Source: Algoriphagus pacificus
Lineage (GTDB): Bacteria; Bacteroidota; Bacteroidia; Cytophagales; Cyclobacteriaceae
DNA: 64,000 bases
Assembly (NCBI RefSeq): GCF_017254845.1
Contig: NZ_JAFKCU010000002.1
Location: 558,001 to 622,000, forward strand
Reading direction: 5' to 3'
Shown: piece by piece, positions 46,884 through 55,184 of the stretch
Layout: each line of letters begins with the position of its first letter
How positions within the stretch are numbered: position 1 is the first letter of the stretch
Notes under the pieces: model-generated
What the model saw: the letters and a program-made list of their open reading frames with translations, nothing else
Told to the model about the DNA's origin: nothing
Database searches by the model: none
Translations under genes and position numbers: made by a program

Positions 46884-49562
46884 ATGCGAAAGCAACTTTT
46901 ATTGTTGATTGTTTTTTTGACCAGTGCGAATTCGATTTCTCTTTTTGGTCAAGAAACTTTGCCCCAAAAAATCCAAAGCTATTTTGAAACTTACCAAAAA
47001 GAATATCCAGTAGAAAAGGCATACCTGCACTTGGATAAAAACACCTACACCCTGGGAGAAGATCTTTGGTTTAGTGCCTATTTGACTGCTGGAAGTAGTC
47101 AAATCCCATCTCCTTTGAGCTCTACGCTTTATGTGGATTTATTCGACGGTGATGGATTGCTAATAGAGCAGAAAATAATCCGATTAGAAAGTGGAAGAGG
47201 GAAAGGTGATTTTACCTTTCCGGCTTTTGGTAAACCCGGTATTTATCAATTAAAAGCCTATACTTCCTGGATGAGGAATTTTGGGGAAGAATATTTTTTT
47301 AATTCCAAAATTAATGTGGTCGATGGAGCAGGTGGATCATTTCTACCAAAAATTGATTTTACAAGCATATCTGCAGCCGATGGAAAGGTAACTTATAAAG
47401 CGGATCTGATTGTGATCGATAGCGAGGGCAACCCTCTTGCTGGAAAGACTGTCGAAATCATCGCAAAAGCTGGAGATGATGAATTATACAAACAAGAACT
47501 GCCTCTAAACTCGCAAGGCCAAGTAAGTTTTACTTTTACAATACCAGAGAAAGCCAACCCATCACAACATTTGGAATTGACTTTCATGGAAAATGAAAGC
47601 TATTCAGTTACTCAGAAACTACGTTTGCCATACAGTTTAACTTTGGCAGATATCCAATTTCTACCTGAAGGTGGACATTCTGTGATTGGCAAAAAGTCCA
47701 TTTTCGGCTTTCGAGCGATTTATCCTGATGGGATGCCAGCTGATATCCAAGGCTTAATTGAAGGAAGTGATGTTTCATTCGAAAGTAATTTTGCCGGTTT
47801 GGGAAAATTTGAATTCACTCCATCACAATCAAGCTATCCAGTTAAAATCACTGAAAAAACCACCACCCAGGAAATCAGTATCGATCTTTCTAAAATTGAT
47901 CCACAAGGATTGGTTATGCAAGTGGTCAATAATCCAGCTGCAAGCTATTTAACTGCATTTGTACAGGGGGAATCCGACTCAAATTCACTTTTGCTGGTCT
48001 CCCAAACTCGGGGAATTATCAATTATATGATCCAAGGTACTTTGGCAAATGGTGTCTGGGGAGTACGTATCCCTAAAGAGAATTTGATCTCAGGTATCAA
48101 CCAAATCACCGTGATGAGTGAAGAAGGAAAACCGCTTTTGGAGCGATTGGTTTTTATCCAAAAAGAAGATCAAATACAGGTAGACATTGCAAAGAATGGG
48201 AATATTACTCCTAGAGAAAAAATCAGCCTAAATCTAAAATCAACATTTACAGGGACACCAAACCCTGGTAGTTTCTCTGTGGCAGTCTTGGATGCTGCTC
48301 AGGTAAATGAAAGTGAACTGGAGGCAGGCGATATTTTTTCTACTCTTCTTTTGACTTCAGATTTATCTGCTGAAATCTATCAACCGGGGAGGTATTTCAA
48401 AGATAACTCTTCTGAGACCCAAGAGGCATTGGACTTAGTAATGTTGACCCATGGTTGGAGAAGATTTGAGTGGTCTGATGTTCTCGCAGGAGATTTTCCA
48501 AAAGTTGAGCAGTTCATTGAGAGAGGAATTAATATAGAAGGTCAAGTAAGTGATGCAGAAGATACAAAAAAGGGCCTTTCTGGTGGGAAAATTACGGCAT
48601 TAGTAGGAGAAGGAATTGAAATTGTGTCCTCAGAGTATGGTCCTAATGGACGCTTCATTTTCAGAGATTTGGACTATTTAGATTCTGCCTCGGTTACGAT
48701 CACTGCCGAAGATTCACGGCTCAAAAACTTTGTAAACGTATCTGTGATTCAGCCTGAACCTGTTTTTAATTCAATCGAAGGAAATTATACTCGAGAAGTA
48801 ATTTGGCCTGAAGGACTTGTGGCAACTTATCGAGAACGCATGATGATGCAGCAACTAAATAAGGAGAAGGATATTGTCGATTTGGAAGGAGTGACTGTTG
48901 AAGCGAAAACTATCGAACGCGAGGAAGAGGAAATCAAAAAAATCTATGGTTCGGGTGATGTGACACTTGATCCAGAAAAGATTCCATCTTCTGTTGGTTT
49001 TACAAATGTCTTCCAATTGATTCAAGGAAGAGTCTCTGGTGTTCAGGTTTTTGTCTCAGGTCTGGATGTCAATGTCACGATTCGTGGCGTAGGATCACTA
49101 GGAGGCTCTGGTACACAACCATTGTATCTGTTGGATAATATACCCGTTGATGCCTCTACTTTGCTCACAATTAGTCCAAGAGATGTATCTAATGTAGATG
49201 TGTTCAAAGACCCTGCGAAGACGGCTATTTTTGGTGCGCAAGGAGCAAATGGTGTAATCGCAGTTTACACTAAAACCGGTGCTGGCATAGGAAAAAGCGT
49301 GGGAGGTACTTTGGTGACGAAGTACGGTGGATACGCAGTTTCAAGGGAGTTTTACCTTCCAAAATATGACACGAAAACAGTTGAAAATGCGATCAAAGAT
49401 GCCCGTGCCACCATTTATTGGAATCCTCTAGTGGATACTGGAGAAAATGGTGAAACTCTTCTAGAGTTTTATAATACTGATATTGCTTCAGAGCAAATAA
49501 TCATTGTTGAAGGAATTGACCCTGAGGGTAGGTTGGGCCGTGCAGTTCGGATTTTAAAATAG
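46884..49562 (+). CDS. Large surface protein: MG2-like domains with C-terminal TonB-plug-like domain
   Basis: An 892-residue exported protein (signal LLLIVFLTSANSISLFGQ). Residues 35-150 form a macroglobulin-like MG2 domain (AYLHLDKNTYTLGEDLWFSAYL, GIYQLKAYTSWMRNFG). Further Ig-like units follow to about 680, including NPGSFSVAVLDAAQV and LVMLTHGWRRFEW. A TonB-receptor plug domain covers about 690-800 (FQLIQGRVSGVQVF, VNVTIRGVGSLGG, LYLLDNIPVDA, VDVFKDPAKTAIFGAQGANG). A short tail follows, with no beta barrel. Such proteins are known in Bacteroidota, but what the plug does without a barrel is not. Confidence 0.87.
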   Translation: MRKQLLLLIVFLTSANSISLFGQETLPQKIQSYFETYQKEYPVEKAYLHLDKNTYTLGEDLWFSAYLTAGSSQIPSPLSSTLYVDLFDGDGLLIEQKIIRLESGRGKGDFTFPAFGKPGIYQLKAYTSWMRNFGEEYFFNSKINVVDGAGGSFLPKIDFTSISAADGKVTYKADLIVIDSEGNPLAGKTVEIIAKAGDDELYKQELPLNSQGQVSFTFTIPEKANPSQHLELTFMENESYSVTQKLRLPYSLTLADIQFLPEGGHSVIGKKSIFGFRAIYPDGMPADIQGLIEGSDVSFESNFAGLGKFEFTPSQSSYPVKITEKTTTQEISIDLSKIDPQGLVMQVVNNPAASYLTAFVQGESDSNSLLLVSQTRGIINYMIQGTLANGVWGVRIPKENLISGINQITVMSEEGKPLLERLVFIQKEDQIQVDIAKNGNITPREKISLNLKSTFTGTPNPGSFSVAVLDAAQVNESELEAGDIFSTLLLTSDLSAEIYQPGRYFKDNSSETQEALDLVMLTHGWRRFEWSDVLAGDFPKVEQFIERGINIEGQVSDAEDTKKGLSGGKITALVGEGIEIVSSEYGPNGRFIFRDLDYLDSASVTITAEDSRLKNFVNVSVIQPEPVFNSIEGNYTREVIWPEGLVATYRERMMMQQLNKEKDIVDLEGVTVEAKTIEREEEEIKKIYGSGDVTLDPEKIPSSVGFTNVFQLIQGRVSGVQVFVSGLDVNVTIRGVGSLGGSGTQPLYLLDNIPVDASTLLTISPRDVSNVDVFKDPAKTAIFGAQGANGVIAVYTKTGAGIGKSVGGTLVTKYGGYAVSREFYLPKYDTKTVENAIKDARATIYWNPLVDTGENGETLLEFYNTDIASEQIIIVEGIDPEGRLGRAVRILK

Positions 49563-49800: not shown

Positions 49801-51489
49801 ATGAAGACAATCAGGATTTTTATTGCTTCTTCTTCGGAATTGAAAGAAGACAGAGATGATTTTAGACTTTTTATTAGCAATCAAAATGATCTATTGCATA
49901 AGAAGGGGATTTACCTTGAGTTAGTCCAATGGGAAGAATTCTTAGATTCTATTTCTGATTCCAGGCTGCAGGATGAATACAATCAGGCTATCAGGAGTTG
50001 TGATATTGTGGTCTGTTTGTTTTTCACCAAAGTTGGAAAATATACAGAGGAGGAGTTTGATACTGCGTATGATGTATTCAAAAAACAAGGCAGGCCAAAG
50101 ATTTGGACCTATTTTAAAGATGCACCAGTCAATACGGGGACACTTTCAGAGGAGGTAAATTCACTTTTTGCCTTTAAAAAGAAGATAGGAGATTTAGGTC
50201 ATTTTTATACATCCTATACCAGTATAGATAATTTGGTGAATAAATATCGAAGTCAATTGGATCGGTATTTTGCAGATTCTGAAACTGGAGGAAATACGAA
50301 GTCAGACGGAGGTACTTCAGAGGAGAAAAAGGAAATTCCAAACCGATTCAATGAAGTCCTGACTGATCAGTTAGTAAATGCTATTAGCAATCATAATAGA
50401 AGAGTAAAAGAGTTTTTAAGCGAAAATCCTGATTGGAAGGAAAACGCTCATTTGATTCAAACTGCAAAAAGACTGATTATCAATGGCTATGTTGGAGTGA
50501 TCGGTGTGCAAATCCGGAAGTTGATGTCTATTGGGGAGGAGGATTTTTCTGAAAGTAAAATGAAACGCTATCTGGAAAATTGCCAGGTAACTGCAAAAAG
50601 GACGCTTCAACTGATCTGCTATGCATTGATTTCTTCTCTGTGGGACCATCAATTGACCAAAAAAGCGAAGCTGACTACAACACAAAATGAAGTTTTATCA
50701 AAGTTTTTTAGAAATGCGGCTGAAGAGGATATTTTGGATTTACTGGAGCTTTTGAAAGTTTTGCTCGAAATATATTCTGAAAATCAATTCGACTTTTTGA
50801 TTTCAGAATCTTTTGATCTTCTTCCTAAAATTGAAACCAATTCTGAATTTTATTTGGCTTGTACCAATCTGCATGAAGTCTCGGCTCTGCTAAAAGAATC
50901 CAATTATTCACTAGATGATTGTGTGAAGGTGGAATTAAGCCTAGCCAGGGTTTTGGAGGAAATGAGTTTCCTGGCCGAATATAGAATGATTTCTATCAAT
51001 GAGATAGACTTTAACCAGCAGAGAAATGATGAAGAGGGGCTATACCTTCACAATTACGTGCTCCTGGATGGCGAGATCCAATTTAATACCAGCCAAAGTA
51101 AAGTTCGAAGGGAAAATTCGCCATTGATTTCACATGCAGTGATTTTATTCAAGGACAATTACCGAAAAAACATCAATCTAGGTCCTTTCATCATCGACTT
51201 CAATGGCATGGCATTGACCGGAGGTTCTAAAATCTGCTTTTATTCTTATTGCAATACCTACGATGACATGAATCTCAACTTCAGTTTCATTGAGGATAAT
51301 AGCAGAGTTGTCATCAGAAAGTCTGACAATCCTAAACCGGAAGATTCTGATTTAAATGCTTTAAACAAGTGGCTTTCTATGAAAGAGAATAGAAAGGATA
51401 TGAATTTTGATAAGGTCTATAGCTTGTTCTATCAGGCCAAAAAAACTCTGACAGGAATAGAAGAAGAGTCTACTGAGGATCAATTTTAA
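49801..51489 (+). CDS. TIR/DUF4062-like N-terminal domain protein, component 1 of STAND island
   Basis: A 562-residue cytosolic protein without signal or membrane segments. Residues 1-157 form a Rossmann-like unit: TIRIFIASSSELKEDRDDF, IYLELVQWEEFLD, LQDEYNQAIRSCDIVVCLFF, KYTEEEFDTAYDVF, KIWTYFKDAP. This resembles DUF4062/TIR-type effector domains, with Glu83-85 a possible catalytic site. A low-complexity linker (160-180) leads to a helical middle (about 185-400), then a beta-rich end (VLLDGEIQFNTSQ, NLGPFIIDFNGMALTGG). The middle and end match nothing I recognise. It is followed after 11 bases by a STAND NTPase gene, so the two likely act together. TIR-like is inferred. Confidence 0.7.
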   Translation: MKTIRIFIASSSELKEDRDDFRLFISNQNDLLHKKGIYLELVQWEEFLDSISDSRLQDEYNQAIRSCDIVVCLFFTKVGKYTEEEFDTAYDVFKKQGRPKIWTYFKDAPVNTGTLSEEVNSLFAFKKKIGDLGHFYTSYTSIDNLVNKYRSQLDRYFADSETGGNTKSDGGTSEEKKEIPNRFNEVLTDQLVNAISNHNRRVKEFLSENPDWKENAHLIQTAKRLIINGYVGVIGVQIRKLMSIGEEDFSESKMKRYLENCQVTAKRTLQLICYALISSLWDHQLTKKAKLTTTQNEVLSKFFRNAAEEDILDLLELLKVLLEIYSENQFDFLISESFDLLPKIETNSEFYLACTNLHEVSALLKESNYSLDDCVKVELSLARVLEEMSFLAEYRMISINEIDFNQQRNDEEGLYLHNYVLLDGEIQFNTSQSKVRRENSPLISHAVILFKDNYRKNINLGPFIIDFNGMALTGGSKICFYSYCNTYDDMNLNFSFIEDNSRVVIRKSDNPKPEDSDLNALNKWLSMKENRKDMNFDKVYSLFYQAKKTLTGIEEESTEDQF

Positions 51490-51500
51490 TTTTTTAGCAA

Positions 51501-53486
51501 ATGGGAAGTCAGATAAAAAAATACCCTTTTAAGTTTCTTGATTCCTACCAGAAAGAGGATAAAAGTGTGTTTTTTGGAAGAGATGAAGAAATCAATTCCT
51601 TGTATGAAATGGTTTTTCAATCGGCTGTGGTTCTGGTATATGGAGCTTCTGGTACGGGTAAAACCAGTTTGATCAATTGTGGACTTGCTGGCAGGTTTCA
51701 GACTCATGATTGGCTGGAAATCATGGTTCGAAGAGGGAAAGATATCAATCAGTCTTTGGAAACTGCCTTGGCAAATTTAGGAGGGGATAAACAGTCGGTG
51801 ATTGATAAACAGAAATGGGAAAATGATTGGGAAGAGGAATTTGGAGTGGGTGATAAATCGTTAACACCACTCGCCAGATCAATCAAAACAATCTATCAAA
51901 AATCTTTCAGGCCAATCTATTTGATCTTTGATCAGTTTGAAGAGCTTTTTGTGCTGGGGACCAAACTTGAGCAGCAGACTTTTTTAGAGTCCATAAAAGG
52001 AATCTTAGAATCCAGGCAACCGGTAAAATTGATTTTTTCGATCAGAGAGGAATATTTGGGTTATTTGACTGAATTCGAAAGAGAAATTCCCCAACTGCTT
52101 CGGAAAAAGCTGAGAGTGGAACCGATGAACCTTGAAAAAGTCAAGCAAGTGATCATCGGAGCAGCTTCTTTCGAAAATTCCATTATTTCGATAAAGGCAG
52201 GAGAAGAAGATGCTGTGGCAGAAGCGATTTTCCAGAAAATAAAGGGGGATAAAAAGTCCTTGACGATTGCCTTACCATTCCTTCAGGTATTCCTGGATAA
52301 GCTTTACATGGAGATTAGCGGTGACGAAACCCGACAAAAACCAGCGGAGTTTTCACTGGCAAGTGTCAAGGAAATGGGAGAAATCGGTGACGTGCTAGGA
52401 AATTTTTTAGAGGATCAGGTTTCTCGAATTGCTGATGATCTTAATGGCAAATACGGAACAATCAACCAAGAACTTATCTGGAAAATTCTTTCTCCTTTTG
52501 CAACATTGGAAGGGACAAAAGAGCCCATTGGCAAGAATGAGTTGTTTGATCGACTTCCGGAATTTGAACAACAAATGGTTTTGGATGTTGTCCAGGCTTT
52601 TATCACGAGTAGGATACTCCGGTATAATGATACAAACGAGACCTATGAAATTGCGCATGATTCTTTAGCCAAACCTATAGCGGATAAAAGATCAGTAGAT
52701 GAGAAGGCTGTTTTGGAGGTAAAGAGATTGATTAAAAGTCAGGTAGGAGTAAAGGAGGAAGCAAGAGAGTTATTTACTGAAAAGCAATTGATCTTTTTAG
52801 AGCCTTACTTGGGGAAATTCAAGCTGAGCGAGGAGGAGAGTAATTGGGTCACAAAAAGCCGCGAATCTCTAAAGAACGAGAAACAAAAAGAGGCTAAAAG
52901 GAAGTATGAAGAACTGGTAAAAAGCAAGAAATCCATGTTCTTGAAAATTGCTGTTTTTGTTTTTGTGATCATCGCAGGGCTCTTTGTTTATTTGGCCATT
53001 CAGGCCCAGAAAAATGCGATTTTGGCTGAAGAGGAGGCTTTGGAAGCAAAAAAAGCCAATGATTATTCCAGTGAACTTCTAAGGCTGGTAATGGAAGGTA
53101 GAGGCGATCAATATGCCAATGTTAGCGATAGTTTACTCAAGCAGATTTTATACAGAGAAAGAACTGCTCCTTTATCTGAGTTAATTGAAGTCAAAGCTTC
53201 AGTAAGCCCTTCTAATGCAGGTGGAGAGAATAAGAATTATACTTTGTGGCTAGATATGCCATCTTTCAGAAAAGATGAAATCAAGGAAGTCCAATACAAT
53301 TTTTGCAGAGGTTTTGCGGATCGTTTGAGGATTTCAAAGGATCCAACATCTTCTTTTTCAATCGGGTATTTAGGTTGGGGATATTGTCCAATTATGAGGA
53401 TTGATGTTATCCTACAGTCTGGAGATACTATCCGAAAAGAGTTTTCATTCGAGAGATATTTTGAAGAAAATCCCCCAATCAACTAA
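51501..53486 (+). CDS. Membrane-anchored STAND NTPase with C-terminal YEATS-like domain
   Basis: A 661-residue protein. Residues 8-400 are a novel-STAND-1 type NTPase: FKFLDSYQKEDKSVFFGRDEE, Walker A YGASGTGKTS (Lys54, Thr55), Walker B IYLIFDQFEELF (Asp144, Glu147/148), sensor IREEYL (Arg182) and a winged-helix end TYEIAHDSLAKPIADKR. A charged coiled coil (453-478) leads to one membrane helix (FLKIAVFVFVIIAGLFVYL, 480-498). Lys-rich residues before it place the NTPase inside. Outside, a short helix precedes a beta domain (560-653: YTLWLDMPSFRKDEI, VQYNFCRG, SFSIGYLGWGYCPIMRIDVI) resembling prokaryotic YEATS. Relatives normally carry WD40 or TPR repeats here. Confidence 0.85.
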   Translation: MGSQIKKYPFKFLDSYQKEDKSVFFGRDEEINSLYEMVFQSAVVLVYGASGTGKTSLINCGLAGRFQTHDWLEIMVRRGKDINQSLETALANLGGDKQSVIDKQKWENDWEEEFGVGDKSLTPLARSIKTIYQKSFRPIYLIFDQFEELFVLGTKLEQQTFLESIKGILESRQPVKLIFSIREEYLGYLTEFEREIPQLLRKKLRVEPMNLEKVKQVIIGAASFENSIISIKAGEEDAVAEAIFQKIKGDKKSLTIALPFLQVFLDKLYMEISGDETRQKPAEFSLASVKEMGEIGDVLGNFLEDQVSRIADDLNGKYGTINQELIWKILSPFATLEGTKEPIGKNELFDRLPEFEQQMVLDVVQAFITSRILRYNDTNETYEIAHDSLAKPIADKRSVDEKAVLEVKRLIKSQVGVKEEARELFTEKQLIFLEPYLGKFKLSEEESNWVTKSRESLKNEKQKEAKRKYEELVKSKKSMFLKIAVFVFVIIAGLFVYLAIQAQKNAILAEEEALEAKKANDYSSELLRLVMEGRGDQYANVSDSLLKQILYRERTAPLSELIEVKASVSPSNAGGENKNYTLWLDMPSFRKDEIKEVQYNFCRGFADRLRISKDPTSSFSIGYLGWGYCPIMRIDVILQSGDTIRKEFSFERYFEENPPIN

Positions 53487-53492
53487 ACTTGA

Positions 53493-55184
53493 TCAATGGA
53501 TAATAGGAATTAATCCTGCTTGTTGGAGATATTCTTGAATCGTTAGGTTTTCAGTAAGCTCCAGTTCAGGCACTTCTCCAATATTATTTTGATGAAAGTG
53601 ATAAACCAAAACTGTCAGAGTTTTAGGAGCGACTACCAAGGCTTTCAAATCTTCGGGTAATTCCTTATAGCTATTTGACAAGATCTGTTCCGAAAATGGA
53701 GAAGAAAGACTATCATCGGAGGGCTTGGCTTGTTTTGTATCTATAATGAAAGAAAACATTCGATACTCAGATTCGATATCCATAAACATGGATTTGACAA
53801 TTTCGAAATAGGAAAATTGATTCTCACTTCCCATGCTTTCTACAAACCTCTTTTCCTCAGCTACTGGTGATCCATCTAAGTTGAATTTCTCCAAACTTGT
53901 AGCAAGTGCAAAACCCACTTGATTGAAATAATAATAATGTAATTGGCCTTTGTAACCTTTGTTTTCCAAAATGCTTTTGAAAAAAGCATCCACTTGACTT
54001 AAGCTTGCTAATCCTTGCTTATAGTTTGAAACAACATGTGTTGCAGAGGCTTTTGGTGGAGGACTTGGGAAGTAATTTTTTTCCATTTTTAAAGAGTATG
54101 GGATAGATTCTGGAACTGATTCCTCCATAATTGGTTGTTCAATACCTCCGATTTGCCCTAGGCCCGGTTTTGGTTTTAAAATGGGTTTTGGTCTATTCCC
54201 TCCTGATATTCCTCCTCCAGCGGGTTTAGTGGCTGTAATTTTCTTGGCAGTATTGTTAACTGACTTCTTCACTTCTTCGACTACTTCTGCGTTCAACTCA
54301 TTTTTAATGAATTCGTCTTTTACAGAATTCAGTCGGTTGATCCAATATTTATACTTTGAATTAAGTAATTCATGGTCTGCCTCTCTAGAGCTCCTATTTT
54401 TCAACAATGACATTAATTCCACATATCTAAAAATCACTTCAGCCCTCAAACCGGCATGATATGTAGGATCAATGCTGTTATAGCCACTTGCTACCTGAAC
54501 TACAGGATGAATTTGATTGTCTTGGACCAAAGTATTAATTGGTATTCCATAGCTTCTACTTATTAGTATCATGGAGTCCAAATCATAATCTTTTGAAAGC
54601 TTAGCCTTCCTTAAAAACCTTTGATAATCTAAGTACAGCTCCTCTTCGATTTGGTCATTAATCTTATCTTTTAATGATATGATATTGGTTTTGTGCTGAA
54701 AATCCGCCTCAAATGTGAATCCGATTAATTGATAAAAGGAGTTTTTTGGTTGATCGTAGAAAAGCAAATCATTCGTTTCTGAATTATTGTAATATTGAAT
54801 TGCATCATCTAATAAATTTTTCAATCGGATGACATAACTCTTTTTTTGCGGGTTATTTCTGGCAAGGCTGGCTTGGGTTCTTCTGTCAGAATAGAAAAAG
54901 TATGTCTGATTTAGATGATAAAGCGATTGAGTGAACTGATAAATAGTTTGGTTTCCTCTTATAAACTCAGGGGATTTGATTTTATCAAGTTCGTCTTTCT
55001 CAAACTTGAGGATTTTTTCTATCCTGGAGCGTTCTAAAGTATCAAAGTACAGGCTGGTCAAATACAAATTCATGTACGCTTGAGCCAAGGATGTAGAATC
55101 ATTTTCAGGGTTGGCTTTGCCTTCTTGAGCTTTTAGATTGCCACAAAGCAGAATGGCGAAAAAGAAAAAAATGAACAATTTCAT
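53493..55184 (-). CDS. Secreted two-domain protein of unknown family converging on the STAND gene
   Basis: A 563-residue protein with a signal peptide (FIFFFFAILLCGNLKAQ). Residues 25-315 are helical and Tyr/Asn-rich. A flexible Gly/Pro/Lys linker (KPILKPKPGLGQIGG, about 318-350) joins a C-terminal domain (375-555) with ASLSQVDAFFKSILENKGYK, HYYYFNQVGFALATSLEKF and LTVLVYHFHQN. I recognise neither domain by name. Its stop is only 6 bases from the STAND gene stop, with no terminator between. A periplasmic partner for the YEATS-like domain is possible. Confidence 0.75.
   Translation of the reverse strand: MKLFIFFFFAILLCGNLKAQEGKANPENDSTSLAQAYMNLYLTSLYFDTLERSRIEKILKFEKDELDKIKSPEFIRGNQTIYQFTQSLYHLNQTYFFYSDRRTQASLARNNPQKKSYVIRLKNLLDDAIQYYNNSETNDLLFYDQPKNSFYQLIGFTFEADFQHKTNIISLKDKINDQIEEELYLDYQRFLRKAKLSKDYDLDSMILISRSYGIPINTLVQDNQIHPVVQVASGYNSIDPTYHAGLRAEVIFRYVELMSLLKNRSSREADHELLNSKYKYWINRLNSVKDEFIKNELNAEVVEEVKKSVNNTAKKITATKPAGGGISGGNRPKPILKPKPGLGQIGGIEQPIMEESVPESIPYSLKMEKNYFPSPPPKASATHVVSNYKQGLASLSQVDAFFKSILENKGYKGQLHYYYFNQVGFALATSLEKFNLDGSPVAEEKRFVESMGSENQFSYFEIVKSMFMDIESEYRMFSFIIDTKQAKPSDDSLSSPFSEQILSNSYKELPEDLKALVVAPKTLTVLVYHFHQNNIGEVPELELTENLTIQEYLQQAGLIPIIH

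Follow-up and report, generated by a model that had tools for sequence, protein, structure and literature searches.

Several described systems come close to the locus considered here, three genes (A, B and C) at positions 49,801 to 55,184 of a 64,000-nucleotide stretch of the Algoriphagus pacificus genome (the window, part of contig C12 in a genome of 5.28 Mb). Avs and bNACHT proteins follow an NLR-like logic, with sensor, STAND NTPase and effector carried by one cytosolic polypeptide. Kaur et al. (2021, PMC8195603) named nSTAND1 and described effectors coupled in trans through effector-associated domains (EADs), and Kaur et al. (2020, PMC7159879) described EACC1, a two-gene membrane system with a caspase. 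A 2026 preprint on Swarozyc (PMC13174449) presents DUF4062 proteins as antiphage NADases, and for one target protein a 2024 paper (PMC10907252) predicts a periplasmic location of its NACHT and lectin domains. CHAT, caspase, DUF4062-like and EAD11 modules are all types that have been placed in conflict systems (PMC8195603, PMC7159879, PMC10907252). The parts of these last three papers available to us contain no description of the coupling domain discussed below, nor of a sensor alternating between fused and secreted forms, and the comparisons with published systems made here likewise refer to the available parts of each source.

In common with the nSTAND1/EAD systems, the locus has an nSTAND1 switch, separate effector genes coupled in trans and swapped N-terminal effectors (PMC8195603), and in four of 69 adaptor proteins (A and its relatives, see below) the effector position is held by a domain with the Pfam name EAD11. 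In those systems, however, both proteins share an EAD, whereas here the coupling seems to proceed through a domain of about 370 residues without a Pfam family, and the sensor lies past a membrane helix or is secreted. Pfam finds no EAD on A or B, and none is among the families listed for 44 STAND proteins (25 of 117). Swarozyc resembles A in having a DUF4062-type domain as the likely executioner, but KpSwz is a single protein whose C-terminal helix-turn-helix (HTH)/winged module binds the phage portal (PMC13174449), while in A, compared by description only, the C-terminal part is larger and the partner is a membrane STAND. The human proteins TEP1, NWD1 and NWD2 carry DUF4062 beside NACHT, several of them with WD40 (PMC13174449). 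In both cases DUF4062 goes together with a STAND-class NTPase, and relatives of our locus add a propeller-type sensor to this likeness; the human proteins are single polypeptides, whereas here there are two genes, a sensor predicted to be outside and an NTPase of the nSTAND1 type. EACC1 also combines two genes, a membrane helix and a caspase-type effector, although its single-helix component has no more than short extensions, and the second gene encodes the caspase (PMC7159879). In place of that component our locus has a large STAND switch and a sensor predicted outside.

With Avs and bNACHT, each one cytosolic polypeptide, the locus has the sensor, STAND and effector logic in common. No Avs or bNACHT model of PADLOC matches A, B or C at E<=1, and PADLOC matches are limited to the candidates PDC-S60 and PDC-S53 and a weak mad8 (0.0059). 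The statement of the initial annotation that no standard defence list describes such a relay is partly correct: nSTAND1, EADs and caspase-type effectors belong to STAND conflict systems already described (PMC8195603, PMC7159879), and the antiphage DUF4062 NADase was reported in 2026 (PMC13174449). We file A-B-C as a variant of STAND conflict systems and do not place it within Swarozyc, Avs or EACC1.

The adaptor-STAND pair

The unit that is widespread is the pair of A and B, and it is defined by the C-terminal domain of A. Gene A (49801-51489, forward strand, 562 residues) and gene B (51501-53486, forward strand, 661 residues) are open reading frames separated by 11 bases, and the third, gene C (53493-55184, reverse strand, 563 residues), converges on B with 6 bases between the two stop codons, all as the initial annotation had described. 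That annotation overlooked the C-terminal coupling, or adaptor, domain of A (50341..51486, forward strand; residues ~181-562, about 370 residues), which begins with helices, continues with a beta-rich part and ends in one more helix, and for which AlphaFold2 (AF2) confidence (pLDDT) is mostly >85 across residues 185-550. No Pfam or NCBIfam family covers the C-terminal two thirds of A, and the domain is conserved in relatives bearing other N-termini.

The pairing was followed in named loci, the best 80 of 99 confirmed among 142 pattern matches, picked by similarity to the window. By record title they are mostly from Bacteroidota, with single records from KSB1, Heliobacteriaceae and Pseudomonadota; 12 of the 80 are Algoriphagus, several being genomes also covered by the genus search. 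They contain 83 adaptor genes, of which 79 are testable, the other four having no downstream gene in the sequence. A STAND gene, called by our own STAND profile, directly follows the adaptor gene in 74 of the 79, is the second or third gene in three and is missing in two. The gaps of the 74 adjacent pairs have a median of 11.5 bases, with overlaps in 28 pairs. Pfam nSTAND1 was found in all 44 STAND partners scanned (that of the window and 43 from a list of 48 complete ones), and P-loop residues G48, G51, G53 and K54 are invariant across 44 aligned STANDs. As a control, 16 further STAND loci from the same family were compared, and none has an adaptor match within a short flank of up to ~1.5 kb.

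The three closest relatives of B among 196 family genomes lie downstream of genes that share the C-terminal domain of A and differ in their N-termini, and a four-row adaptor profile has matches in 28 of 390 order-level genomes. The family and order stretches, which cover part of these matches, hold 35 adaptor genes, window included. Three are at a contig end; for the other 32, a STAND gene comes directly next in 23, slightly later in one and not at all in eight. The adaptor gene of L103, directly before a STAND gene, is outside this count of 35; missed by the four-row profile, it was recovered at 192 bits with a profile of 27 rows.

Some further structures were seen in these searches. Loci L084-L090, L092 and L093 of the order-level family f2 encode caspase-type adaptor proteins of ~606 residues without an adjoining STAND gene (the contig of L085 ends after the gene), and in six of these loci a 123-residue gene with a hydrophobic helix precedes the caspase-type adaptor gene. 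Many family genomes (L007-L020) have other nSTAND1-like proteins, often of ~1050 residues, with different upstream genes. In the genome of the window itself, a 300-residue frame on another contig gives a weak adaptor-like match (C1:961456-961716, E 3.7e-4).

Exchange of putative effector and sensor modules

Both ends of the pair vary. N-terminal domains were assigned with Pfam (E<=1e-3) in 69 adaptor proteins, that of the window and 68 others, after leaving out the 12 named Algoriphagus loci, the short L183 and two copies that are duplicated or cut (L184, L191). CHAT is present in 36 of them, EAD11 in four, and Peptidase_C14, Peptidase_C25 and DUF4062 in one each, the last being the window. 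Two Mucilaginibacter loci (L157, L165) belong to the DUF4062 group by our own profile only. In Mucilaginibacter the DUF4062-type adaptor is paired with a STAND-helix-WG/LRR protein, with the effector type kept and the sensor different. Upstream of the three closest relatives of B, the adaptor has no recognised N-terminus in L002/L035, an AraC-type HTH in L003/L036 and a caspase (C14) in L004/L037, C14 also being present in L088. In A itself this position is taken by the DUF4062/TIR-like domain (49801..50265, forward strand; residues ~1-155), which also matches the PADLOC candidate PDC-S60 at 7.1e-16. Its putative catalytic Glu85 is invariant in 22 of 22 aligned sequences, with E97 of KpSwz and E1008 of TEP1 standing outside that alignment.

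Gene B was initially annotated as a STAND NTPase with a YEATS-like domain, and both assignments are borne out above the curated Pfam cut-offs. The nSTAND1 NTPase (51501..52685, forward strand; residues ~1-395) is matched at 3.3e-42 over residues 9-390, and the pYEATS domain (53223..53450, forward strand; residues ~575-650) at 1.2e-15 over residues 579-648, with 57.6 bits against a cut-off of 26.9. Between them lies a single membrane helix (52947..53003, forward strand; residues 483-501, Kyte-Doolittle 19-residue mean 2.68), which would leave pYEATS outside the cytoplasm. On average the pYEATS domain is 72% identical to its counterparts in four relatives from the genus, a conservation equal to that of the NTPase.

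In relatives, STAND tails past the membrane helix carry pYEATS, WD40 or WG/LRR, and modules of the same types are encoded separately as well, by genes that follow short-tailed STANDs and whose products have signal-like N-termini. One such product, the LRR protein of L097, aligns with the post-helix tail of the L099 STAND (37% over 503 residues, 7e-78) and with that of the L105 STAND (40% over 338 residues, 6e-66). A next gene on the same strand with a signal-like N-terminus follows 11 of 12 short-tail STANDs (<135 residues) and one of 14 long-tail STANDs (>=250 residues; Fisher 2.7e-5), and a next gene matching WD40 or LRR follows 8 of 12 and 0 of 14, respectively (Fisher 3.2e-4), in a comparison that was counted by hand, with cut-offs set after seeing the table, a simple hydropathy rule for signal-like N-termini, and omission of rows that lack a helix or a third gene or have tails of intermediate length. 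The next gene of L180, with WD40 in Pfam, adds a ninth short-tail case.

The orientation of these proteins can be predicted from charge. Among 75 named-locus STANDs with >=250 aligned NTPase residues, 55 have a helix <=200 residues past the NTPase, and lysine and arginine (K/R) are more numerous on its N-terminal (NTPase) side in 53, equal in one and fewer in one (means 6.1 vs 2.6). Since this bias goes together with homologous modules that have signal-like N-termini of their own, the NTPase is predicted to be inside and the tail outside. The layout proposed in the initial annotation, with cytosolic, membrane and external parts, agrees with both the charge bias and the homology of LRR/WG and WD40 tails to separate signal-bearing proteins.

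Two neighbouring genes deserve mention beside these modules. A CHAT-adaptor and STAND-WD40 pair in L098 is followed by a Peptidase_C14 caspase with a hydrophobic N-terminus (L098:11794-13506), so a protease could perhaps be located outside as well as inside. In L176, a guanylate-cyclase/TPR gene (L176:11336-13612) follows a CHAT-adaptor and STAND pair.

The triplet within Algoriphagus

Gene C encodes a secreted-type protein of two parts, its N-terminus being hydrophobic and signal-like in a hydropathy scan. The two domains noted at first are recovered by conservation, as a helical part (residues 21-315) and a C-terminal domain (366-563) with a variable linker between, and no Pfam or NCBIfam family was found for C. 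C evolves fast: identity is 34% and 52% in its two parts, while the folded parts of A and B reach 65-72%. Its N-terminal part is duplicated in three genus genomes, and the C genes of L145 and L140 reach 841 and 858 residues. The C-terminal domain of C (motif near FPWPPPKASA), which no Pfam family fits, was also seen at L218:7340-8902 and in L219-L224, in one protein that has an HETGH stretch and in others, from a different family, that resemble lipoproteins.

The profile of C has matches in 13 of 73 genus genomes. The full-length profile of A has matches in 17, of which four cover the DUF4062 N-terminus only and 13 are full-length, in the same 13 genomes as C (13 of 13 carriers vs 0 of the other 60; Fisher's test 1.2e-14, which ignores relatedness). 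A and C lie ~2 kb apart on one contig in 12 of these carriers, and on different contigs in the last, a 680-contig draft (G557), while B is between them in every carrier stretch examined with enough sequence. Open A-B-C triplets recur in the genus at 30-89% protein identity. As A and C share the same genomes and open triplets recur, the triplet is not due to chance, and the lack of co-location that would have spoken against the initial annotation was not seen. Among the genomes and loci searched, the triplet with C was found in Algoriphagus only, and beyond the genus it is the A-B pair that recurs.

In seven of seven non-carriers examined the site is empty, the two genes that flank the island, one of 345 residues and one of GH109 type, adjoining each other directly. 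The GH109-type gene is present in 72 of 73 genus genomes and flanks 11 of the 12 carrier loci compared. Of nine window genes compared, the 17-kb locus of A. oliviformis (L140) was found to have just the three of the island. In G546, which seems by contig position to be this genome, the island and the GH109-type gene are on different contigs. Shared presence, empty sites and the A. oliviformis locus together mean that the three genes are gained and lost together: A, B and C come and go as a unit, which appears to have moved jointly once. In a tree of three flanking proteins (20 rows, that of L140 without data), carriers and non-carriers are interleaved, and the carriers do not form one clade.

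Upstream of A, the window has an 892-residue gene (46884-49562) between the 345-residue gene and A, with a SusC/RagA-like signature and a weak MG2-like part. In the other carrier stretches examined, A comes directly after the 345-residue gene, without the 892-residue gene.

A proposed relay and its alternatives

Gene content, pairing, domain swaps, the predicted topology and the presence or absence of the unit make the architecture well supported. We propose that it works as a split, membrane-spanning, NLR-like STAND relay in which sensing outside releases a cytosolic effector, and we give this reading a probability of about 0.6. What we infer beyond the architecture is docking, oligomerisation, NADase activity in A, a sensed ligand, the role of C and a function in conflict with phages, predators or competitors. 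B would be the switch, with a cytosolic nSTAND1 NTPase, one inner-membrane helix and pYEATS outside. C would be a secreted, fast-evolving partner read by the pYEATS end, either as a co-sensor or as a guarded component, and A the executioner, with its C-terminal domain docking onto the NTPase of B. Activated B would then oligomerise and bring the DUF4062/TIR-like domains of A together, and the clustered domains would hydrolyse NAD+, leading to arrest or death of the cell. Relatives retain the docking domain and nSTAND1 but exchange the proposed executioner for a CHAT or caspase protease, an EAD11 recruiter or an AraC-type HTH, and the predicted outside sensor for WD40 or LRR/WG, which is either fused to the STAND or secreted by itself.

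Several observations weigh against this proposal. The match of A to Pfam DUF4062 (E 3.3e-4, 21.2 bits) is under the 24.7 cut-off, as is that to TIR_2 (0.0027), and A is for this reason called only DUF4062-like. No helix was found within 200 residues of the NTPase in 20 of the 75 STANDs, some of them cut by a contig end or split in two open reading frames. The eight family and order adaptor genes without a STAND gene, either directly behind them or among the next two genes, are all caspase-type and all from family f2. Divergence is not unique to C, as the helix of B and the linker after it have 38% and 52% identity. The remaining points of this kind are those on which two of the alternatives draw.

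According to the first alternative, the system could be an envelope-status or developmental switch and not an immune one, with outside sensing leading to regulated proteolysis, NAD+ signalling or transcription and no invader involved. One relative (L036) has an AraC-type HTH at the effector position and others have no recognised N-terminal domain, so the output need not be lethal. Likewise, none of 10 flanking genes matches PADLOC at E<=0.001, hence no sign of a defence island, and within the genus the unit usually occupies one fixed site, the GH109-type flank. A switch of this kind would, however, fit poorly with patchy presence in 13 of 73 genomes and a clean empty site, with the rapid divergence of C, or with effector positions that hold mostly CHAT, and also caspase, DUF4062-like and EAD11, all conflict-system modules (PMC8195603, PMC7159879, PMC10907252). 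We consider it unlikely.

Alternatively, A and B alone could be the working system, with C as a brake that holds B off or as an unrelated secreted passenger that hitch-hikes. C is on the strand opposite to A-B and is therefore not co-transcribed with them, the triplet including C was found only in Algoriphagus among the genomes and loci searched, and the C family was not found in the available stretches around the 68 non-Algoriphagus named loci. The C-terminal domain of C is also present in seven other genomes among 326, with no STAND or adaptor match in the stretch around its gene. On the other hand, a mere passenger would hardly be expected in every genome with full-length A and in none of the other 60, nor to accompany A where it lies outside the usual flanks, in A. 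oliviformis, and other lineages have a secreted-type partner on the same strand, points that bear on a passenger and not on a brake; we regard this explanation as doubtful, to much the same degree as the previous one. That the helix of B is a mere anchor and pYEATS a cytoplasmic sensor of internal cues, as in Avs or bNACHT, would suit the general picture that the bacterial NLR-like proteins known so far act as internal sensors, but is very improbable given the K/R bias in 53 of 55 STANDs and homologous sensor modules with signal-like N-termini of their own.

The locus may represent an undescribed, receptor-type class of bacterial NLRs, a suggestion that we make tentatively and at somewhat less than even odds. 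Such a class would have a transmembrane nSTAND1, interchangeable sensors, fused or secreted, in the periplasm or at the surface, interchangeable cytosolic death effectors and a common, unnamed docking domain, so that an attack would be judged before or as the envelope is breached. The system would also be a bacterial, split counterpart of TEP1/NWD1, in which DUF4062 and a STAND NTPase are combined and activation is treated as speculative in the available text of PMC13174449. In view of the swap pattern, any unfamiliar N-terminal module on the docking domain becomes a candidate effector. If the relay is real, a membrane switch with its sensor outside and its executioner inside would extend NLR logic to surveillance of the cell surface and envelope.

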